64,000 bases of DNA from Clostridia bacterium (GTDB lineage: Bacteria > Bacillota > Clostridia > Oscillospirales > CAG-272): the NCBI GenBank assembly GCA_017483195.1, contig JAFULR010000008.1, forward strand, positions 62,001-126,000, read 5' to 3'. The notes under the pieces were generated by a model. It was not told the origin of the DNA. It was given only the letters and a program-made list of their open reading frames with translations, and made no database searches. Made by a program: the position numbers and the translations under genes. Below, in pieces: positions 5,323 through 6,917 of this stretch; the first letter of the stretch is position 1, and every line of letters begins with the position of its first letter.

Positions 5323-5351
5323 TTGTATTTTGGAGAATTATGTGCTATAAT
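5323..5351 (+). promoter_or_regulatory. Strong promoter of the structured leader
   Basis: TTGTAT (5323-5328), a 17-base spacer and TATAAT (5346-5351), with a TGTGC extended -10 context. Transcription should begin near 5358, which leaves a leader of about 220 bases before the CNNM gene at 5580. Confidence 0.8.
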
Positions 5352-5385
5352 ATATGCTGATTATTTATGAAAGGAGTTTACAACC

Positions 5386-5517
5386 GTGGACCCACTACCC
5401 CGAAGTTGCCCTGTAACTCGGTTTTTTAACTACGACAAGCATTCCGATTTGTTCAATATGTTCAGATGCTTTTGCTCGTACACAGGCAAAAGAATCCACT
5501 CACCGATCATTTCGTGA
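5386..5517 (+). CDS. Possible 43-codon leader peptide
   Basis: A GTG start at 5386 has the ribosome site AAAGGAG (5370-5375) ahead of it at good to slightly long spacing. It opens a frame of 43 codons ending in TGA at 5515-5517. The frame runs through the terminator-like hairpin at 5400-5427 and ends inside the second inner hairpin of the branched structure. The product (VDPLPRSCPVTRFF at its start, three cysteines in all) matches nothing I know. If translated, ribosomes would open the upstream hairpin, which would be a plausible attenuation mechanism. It may equally be a chance frame. Confidence 0.25.
   Translation: MDPLPRSCPVTRFFNYDKHSDLFNMFRCFCSYTGKRIHSPIIS
5400..5427 (+). terminator. Terminator-like hairpin inside the leader
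   Basis: CCG-A-AGTT (5400-5407) pairs with AACTCGG (5415-5421) across a single bulged A, with a 7-base loop, followed directly by TTTTTT (5422-5427). It is a short 7-bp stem, so strength is uncertain. It would end a roughly 70-base RNA or act as an attenuator before the CNNM gene. Confidence 0.5.
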
Positions 5518-5579
5518 GATAAGGTATTACTTGAATTTTTATACTGAACATATTTTGAATTACATTAATTGGAGGAGCT

Positions 5580-6917
5580 ATGTCTACTATACTTAGACAG
5601 TTATTATTACAGTTTATACTCATCGCACTTAACGCTTTTTTTGCCGCGACCGAAATTGCGGTTATCTCTCTCAACAGCCAGAAAATGAAGGCCATGGCTG
5701 AGGACGGCGATAAAAAAGCAGAAAAAATCTTGGGAATCATTGAAGATCCCACCAAATTTCTTTCGACCATTCAGGTCGGTATCACACTTGCAGGCTTCTT
5801 AGGCTCAGCATTTGCTGCCGACAGCTTCGGTGATATGCTTGCAAACGCCGTTAACGCGCAATTCGGCTTCACCGGCGGAACTGCCGGAGCGGTAAAAACC
5901 GTTTCCGTCATTATAATCACACTTGTTCTTTCTTACTTTACTCTCGTTCTCGGTGAGCTTGTTCCCAAGAGAGTGGCAATGAAAAACAAAGAAAAGGTTG
6001 CTAAATCATTCTGCGGAGTTGTTTCCGTTCTTACAACCATACTTAAACCCGTTATCTGGTTTTTGACCGTTTCAACCAACAGTGTTCTCAAGCTTCTCGG
6101 TATCGACCCCGACGAAAAGGAGGAAACTGTTTCCGAAGAGGACATCGTTACCATGCTTGACGCAGGTGCTGACGAAGGCGGTCTTGACGAGGACGACGTT
6201 GAATACATAAAGAACGTCTTTAAGCTCGACAATCTTACAGCGGCGGACGTTATGACTCAGAGAAGCTCGATCGTTGCTATTCCCGATGACATCTCAAACG
6301 AGGACATGATAAGACTTATCACGGACGAGGGATATTCCCGTATTCCCGTTTATACAGAAAGTCTTGACAAAATTGTAGGTGTTCTTTACGCAAGAGAATA
6401 TCTTCTCAAGCACAACGAGCCCGGCTTTAAGCTTGAGGACGCTATGTTCTCTCCCAAATACGTTCCCGAAACGATGCATCTCGATGCGCTTCTTAAGGAA
6501 ATGCAGGAATCCCACAATCACATCGCGATCGTCGTTAACGAATACGGTGTTACGAGCGGAGTTGTTAGTATGGAGGATATAATCGAGGAGCTTGTAGGCG
6601 AGATCTGGGACGAGCTTGACGAGGCTGTTGAGCCCATCAAGGAGATATCCAAAAATAAATACAGAGTCCTCTCTACCGTATCCCTTGACGAGTTCTTTAC
6701 ATTCTTTGAAATAGATAACGACGAGGAAAGTGACTCTACAACCGTAAACGGTTGGATCAACGAGCACGCGGAAAGCATTCCCGAGGTCGGATTTACCTTT
6801 ACTTACGACAGATTGACTGTTACAGTTACAAAGGCTGATGACATTATGTCACACGAAATCGAAGTGGAAATCATTCCCGAAGAGCTTCCTCTTGAGGAAG
6901 AGGATTCCGAGGAGTAA
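5580..6917 (+). CDS. CNNM/CorC-family (HlyC/TlyC-like) membrane protein with CBS pair
   Basis: A 445-residue integral membrane protein. Residues about 1-190 form the DUF21/CNNM membrane domain with the ELVPKRVAM motif after its third or fourth helix. Residues about 200-335 form a CBS-domain pair that in relatives binds ATP or AMP. Residues about 350-430 form the CorC_HlyC domain. Characterised relatives (CorC, MpfA/YhdP) export Mg2+; the old hemolysin name is not a safe function. The start ATG 5580 has GGAGGA directly upstream. The gene is monocistronic: a long structured leader precedes it and a terminator follows it, so metal-responsive control is plausible but unproven. Confidence 0.9.
   Translation: MSTILRQLLLQFILIALNAFFAATEIAVISLNSQKMKAMAEDGDKKAEKILGIIEDPTKFLSTIQVGITLAGFLGSAFAADSFGDMLANAVNAQFGFTGGTAGAVKTVSVIIITLVLSYFTLVLGELVPKRVAMKNKEKVAKSFCGVVSVLTTILKPVIWFLTVSTNSVLKLLGIDPDEKEETVSEEDIVTMLDAGADEGGLDEDDVEYIKNVFKLDNLTAADVMTQRSSIVAIPDDISNEDMIRLITDEGYSRIPVYTESLDKIVGVLYAREYLLKHNEPGFKLEDAMFSPKYVPETMHLDALLKEMQESHNHIAIVVNEYGVTSGVVSMEDIIEELVGEIWDELDEAVEPIKEISKNKYRVLSTVSLDEFFTFFEIDNDEESDSTTVNGWINEHAESIPEVGFTFTYDRLTVTVTKADDIMSHEIEVEIIPEELPLEEEDSEE

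Follow-up and report, generated by a model that had tools for sequence, protein, structure and literature searches.

The question raised by this locus is what the long, stably folded RNA leader in front of a CNNM/CorC gene responds to, and how. Within the window, the whole analysed stretch of 64,000 nucleotides, the gene (5580-6917; like all features below on the + strand) carries PF01595, CBS and CorC_HlyC domains above cut-off and is a predicted Mg2+ exporter; the Mg2+ link drawn in the original prediction is plausible. That prediction described a ligand-sensing RNA behind a strong promoter. As read from the sequence, the promoter (5323-5351) combines an extended -10 element (TGC-TATAAT, 5343-5351), which fits this description, with a weak -35 element (TTGTAT, 5323-5328), which does not; it is kept across the genus in the genus alignment, and a promoter scan of the region did not list it. 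The leader itself (5362-5582) is clearly structured, with a predicted energy of -54.5 kcal/mol (z -3.75) that none of 200 dinucleotide shuffles equalled. Its closing stem is real: AATATGTTCAG (5455-5465) and CTGAACATATT (5544-5554) match exactly as reverse complements, and pairs are changed on both sides, for example from A-U to U-A, among four genus members. The proposed covariation check thus favours the closing stem, but not the two inner hairpins, one at 5469-5492 (arms 5469-5476/5485-5492) and one at 5499-5518 (arms 5499-5503/5514-5518), which are present in the fold and showed only departures, with no compensatory pair changes, in the same four members.

The ribosome site had been placed just after the closing stem. 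The Shine-Dalgarno sequence of the CNNM gene, GGAGG, is indeed found there (5571-5575, ahead of the ATG at 5580), but the stem extends outward and covers it, with 5437-5454 pairing with the Shine-Dalgarno region to about 5577. The 5′ arm of this sequestering stem therefore spans 5437-5465, including the anti-Shine-Dalgarno TTCC at 5442-5445 (fold and duplex tests), and the 3′ arm spans 5544-5577 (fold, duplex and recoding tests).

Behind the promoter lies an upstream open reading frame (uORF) of 43 codons (MDPLPRSCPVTRFF...; leader peptide MDPLPRSCPVTRFFNYDKHSDLFNMFRCFCSYTGKRIHSPIIS) at 5386-5517, with a GTG start at 5386, a TGA stop at 5515-5517 that the second inner hairpin overlaps, and its own Shine-Dalgarno site, AAAGGAG (5370-5376), read from the sequence and invariant in the genus. 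The closing stem takes its 5′ arm from inside this uORF. GTGGA at 5386-5390, for which a contact with TCCAC had been suggested, is the start of this uORF (GTG-GA), and the pairing was not seen outside the genus. The predicted terminator-like hairpin with six T also exists (hairpin 5400-5421, T run 5422-5427), but it is situated inside the uORF and is genus-specific (kept in 4/4 genus members); it is possible that it provides a second, transcriptional layer of control. The three other genomes of the genus that have the leader keep the uORF frame intact while differing by a 3-nt in-frame indel and many synonymous changes, and orthologues at about 61-65% protein identity share the MDPLPRS start while the remainder of the uORF peptide differs.

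Among 45 distinct leaders, codons 2-5 (D-P-L-P) each use several synonymous codons with no amino-acid change, the S codon is almost always AGT, and no conservation was found past codon 8, where sequence and length vary freely. The R codon is CGA in all 45, although one of the two search patterns imposed CGAAGY; CGA AGT also occurs in 10/10 family matches from a pattern with free synonymous choice, and CGA is rare, at 8.2% of Arg codons across the genes of the loci retrieved. This codon usage indicates that an amino-acid-level constraint acts on the uORF start. Codons 2-7, D-P-L-P-R(CGA)-S (5389-5406), are proposed as a ribosome-destabilizing sensor from pattern matches and codon comparison. 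At the other end of the MDPLPRS uORFs (e.g., L037, L045 and L092), N or C is usually the final residue (LLC, DLN, RN or RC before the stop) and the middle is variable; in L039 and L093 the uORF is frameshifted relative to its relatives and the usual PFVLLC end persists downstream in another frame, reflecting either assembly error or decay.

The conserved start is linked specifically to CNNM genes. A Shine-Dalgarno site followed by MDPLPRS was matched 10 times in 395 family genomes by the pattern with free synonymous choice, whose Shine-Dalgarno spacing is too tight for the window's own genus, and a CNNM gene was next in all 10 cases, while the reversed control pattern gave no match in the same genomes. 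A related pattern, imposing CGAAGY, recovered 64 loci from 84,980 species, 48 of them clostridial and 16 in other phyla. CNNM genes follow 46 of the 48 clostridial matches, the remaining two reaching the contig or locus edge, and the distance from the uORF stop to CNNM is 44-78 nt in most of them. None of the 16 loci in other phyla has CNNM downstream, and their number is about the chance expectation. The genomes are mostly metagenome assemblies and related sequences are not independent.

The interior of the uORF is conserved in a different manner, namely in its pairing with the CNNM ribosome-binding site (RBS); this pairing and the N-terminal codons are the only features of the uORF conserved between genera. 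A 10-leader MAFFT alignment was too gappy for pair counts, and support beyond the genus comes from swap and synonymous-shuffle tests. The duplex between the uORF interior and the CNNM RBS region had a mean energy of -27.1 kcal/mol in native leaders versus -17.7 with swapped uORFs, and in 43/44 leaders the RBS is paired with uORF nt ~30-65 in the minimum-energy fold. Accessibility was expressed as RBS opening energy, the unpaired-probability metric being uninformative. Synonymous uORF recodings lowered the mean opening cost to 6.47 kcal/mol from the native 10.62 (Wilcoxon p 2e-12, which is optimistic since the leaders are related). Because native pairing beats both recodings and swapped uORFs, and because the genus members show both-side pair changes, the stem seems to be selected beyond the needs of the peptide. 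Translation of the uORF and folding of the leader are mutually exclusive by computed energies: the median opening cost is 10.3 kcal/mol in free RNA and 10.4 when a ribosome is stopped at codon 7, which leaves the site as closed as in free RNA, but the cost drops to 5.5 with a ribosome placed on uORF nt 31-66; in 7/44 leaders a ribosome on the arm cuts the cost by less than 2 kcal/mol. Selection thus appears to act on two traits: residues 1-7 of the peptide, and a stem with a 5′ arm that starts just past a codon-7-halted ribosome.

The architecture of a leader-peptide translational attenuator is well supported by these comparisons, and we consider it rather probable that the leader is such an attenuator of a predicted Mg2+-exporter gene, with CNNM ON at high and OFF at low Mg2+. 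Translation of the uORF, ribosome drop-off, Mg2+ as the signal and the ON state at high Mg2+ are inferred by analogy with characterised systems. Ribosomes initiating on the uORF would meet a hard-to-translate N-terminus, M-D-P-L-P-R, with its rare CGA; in B. subtilis, Asp-Pro is a motif that brings ribosomes to a stall (PMC11381351). With ample Mg2+ they would pass and travel across uORF nt ~31-66, thereby disrupting the stem and freeing the CNNM RBS; at low Mg2+ they would abort or halt in the first codons via intrinsic ribosome destabilization (IRD), and a ribosome at codon 7 would stop short of the 5′ arm, letting the stem form and turning CNNM OFF. The ON state at high Mg2+ suits an exporter role, Mg2+ export by the window's CNNM being assumed from homologues (PMC12421838). 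As in leaders of the MgtL/MgtQ kind, a short uORF lies upstream of a predicted Mg2+ transporter gene and has an acidic and/or Pro N-terminus conserved at the amino-acid level. On the other hand, with its single acidic residue D-P-L-P falls short of MgtL and of the acidic uORFs described below, which counts against the Mg2+ attenuator, as do the 7/44 leaders with a small ribosome effect and the CNNM genes that lack a clear uORF. The M-box (RF00380) was matched neither in the window nor in any of 40 family genomes tested, the control matching in B. subtilis, and mgtE is nearly universal in family genomes, from which another Mg2+ sensor is to be expected. Importer genes had a convincing look-alike uORF in only 2/29 upstream regions: MDTGNGNPDAGGRST... 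with CGA-AGT upstream of mgtE (L161), and MDPAPGIVR... with CGA upstream of corA (L188).

Elsewhere in the order, the CNNM genes of further genera and families are preceded by different uORFs, including MDSDDSDCDDHRILRC, MDSDSSDNPDRN, MDADEGDGNN, MDTDEGDSTAAG, MDDGDSNAPAKPP and MDGSDSNAADR, and further MNATDSDDSSDDDR, MDDGDSTDTT, MNPGDSSDPDR, MDTDSIPRND and MDDSPIPRC, with MDSDDSDCDD and MDGSDSN exemplifying the acidic/Pro-rich type. Acidic/Pro uORFs, defined by a Shine-Dalgarno site and three or more D/E/P in residues 2-9, were counted in 17/55 regions upstream of CNNM, where shuffles predict 1.3, in 10/48 when the MDPLPRS class is left out, and in 4/128 upstream regions of other genes. A separate acidic pattern gave 10 matches in 395 genomes, 8 of which were verified before CNNM. 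Of the non-MDPLPRS uORFs with an Arg codon anywhere in codons 2-16, 14/17 use CGA as the first one; these uORFs are not phylogenetically independent. In about a dozen non-MDPLPRS leaders a hairpin followed by a run of T (-15 to -27 kcal/mol) overlaps the uORF stop, lies just past it or is located inside the uORF, whereas terminators were searched for in MDPLPRS leaders and are not general there. Since terminators sit at the uORF stop in the sister leaders, completing the uORF would prevent termination; the acidic/Pro-rich uORF would then act on a terminator at its own stop codon with the same sign as the window leader, through a different device. Rfam had a match for none of the sister-lineage leaders tested, and no clear uORF precedes roughly half of the CNNM genes in the survey. 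In L012 and L015 the uORFs reach 100 and 95 codons, longer than the other leader peptides analysed, with an MDDSPIPRC start, a KILNC end and hydrophobic stretches. In L013, L019 and L021, which have no uORF, the CNNM protein itself starts with MPDPLWG, MDDPLW or MDDPIWRQ and thereby resembles the beginning of the uORFs; that such genes are directly sensitive to ribosome destabilization is speculation.

The same attenuator could respond to another signal, such as CGA decoding or charged tRNA-Arg or tRNA-Pro, EF-P or ABC-F capacity, a ribosome-targeting drug or the general elongation rate. The invariant CGA could mean that tRNA-Arg or decoding speed is what is sensed, and it is retained in nearly all uORF classes despite its rarity; S. 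aureus rbfL senses arginine via a rare Arg codon (PMC13009471), and B. subtilis ribosomes stall at Asp-Pro, these stalls depending on EF-P/YfmR (PMC11381351). We nevertheless regard such a signal as unlikely, if worth keeping in mind, because the gene under control is CNNM and the look-alike uORFs occur at mgtE and corA, not at arginine, proline or drug-resistance genes, because the acidic uORF classes are without repeated Arg or Pro codons, and because acidic/Pro starts are, as far as the sources describe them, a known hallmark of IRD. An Mg2+ attenuator of opposite sign, in which early drop-off frees the RBS and CNNM is ON at low Mg2+ for uptake or another role, has a precedent in MgtQ at mgtB (PMC8092293), and the transport direction of CNNM rests on homologues; it is very improbable given that the codon-7-halted fold keeps the RBS as closed as free RNA, that the sister terminators at the uORF stop imply antitermination by completion rather than abortion, and that characterised CorC-type proteins are tied to efflux of Mg2+ and to induction when Mg2+ is high (PMC12421838). 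There is similarly little to be said for the uORF being a functional small protein or a constitutive translational coupler without sensing: the ORF is conserved and has good initiation signals, but its conservation is limited to the first seven residues, and constitutive coupling would leave the selected RBS-closing stem unexplained. A ligand-binding riboswitch, perhaps for Mg2+ or Mn2+, is hardly credible despite the branched fold, the low z-score and the metal-transporter gene downstream, since no conserved aptamer-like core was found, the conserved element is coding sequence, loop sequences differ between genera, the inner hairpins are without covariation, and Rfam at gathering and permissive thresholds gave only chance matches below threshold, in agreement with the original prediction, which left the class unknown. 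The riboswitch reading was dropped once the conservation turned out to be coding; the "branched RNA" is mostly uORF interior whose sequence is unconserved between genera.

The Mg2+-responsive leader-peptide attenuator, ON at high Mg2+, is therefore the reading retained for the window, and related Clostridia probably share the same kind of switch, as judged from their leader sequences. More tentatively, and with slightly less than even confidence, we propose order-wide clostridial Mg2+ sensing by nascent peptides in M-box-less genomes, where acidic/Pro uORFs with a rare-CGA sensor control CNNM via RBS-sequestering or terminator devices and occasionally the importers mgtE and corA. To our knowledge, most descriptions of Mg2+ sensing by ribosome destabilization concern enterobacteria and genes for importers. 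If the proposal is true, such sensing reaches Clostridia and predicted exporters with opposite sign, one kind of peptide drives two output devices, and a possible reason for the M-box absence in the family genomes is at hand. The many natural uORF variants also offer material for asking which nascent-chain sequences destabilize ribosomes.

Compared with known systems, the leader would resemble the M-box of ykoK as an Mg2+-responsive leader in Firmicutes, but there was no covariance-model match in the window or the 40 family genomes. Like rbfL of S. aureus rbf, it has a uORF with a rare Arg codon that gates a downstream RBS; in rbfL, however, the paused ribosome occludes the RBS, arginine is the signal and an acidic/Pro start is not described (PMC13009471). 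In Enterobacteria, the CorC-domain genes of CorC (YbeX) and MgpA (YoaE) are under IRD or positive leader-peptide control: high Mg2+ induces corC and mgpA, MgpA falls when YoaL loses its start codon, and the N-terminus of CorC contains an IRD sequence (PMC12421838). The IRD of CorC lies within the protein itself, unlike ours, and YoaL is compared by description. MgtL of mgtA (E. coli, Salmonella) shares an acidic/Pro N-terminus before an Mg2+ transporter, and ribosome drop-off on its EPDP at low Mg2+ alters the leader fold (PMC11282234, PMC11552253); its peptide and RNA have no evident relation to the clostridial leader, and its drop-off turns an importer ON via Rho, whereas in the window drop-off would switch a predicted exporter OFF by letting the RBS be sequestered. 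MgtQ of Salmonella mgtB is likewise a ribosome-destabilizing uORF governing the sequestered RBS of an Mg2+ transporter, with Asp2 and Glu5 destabilizing ribosomes (PMC8092293); in this peptide of 8 aa destabilization promotes RBS opening, whereas early abortion on the window leader should keep the RBS closed.
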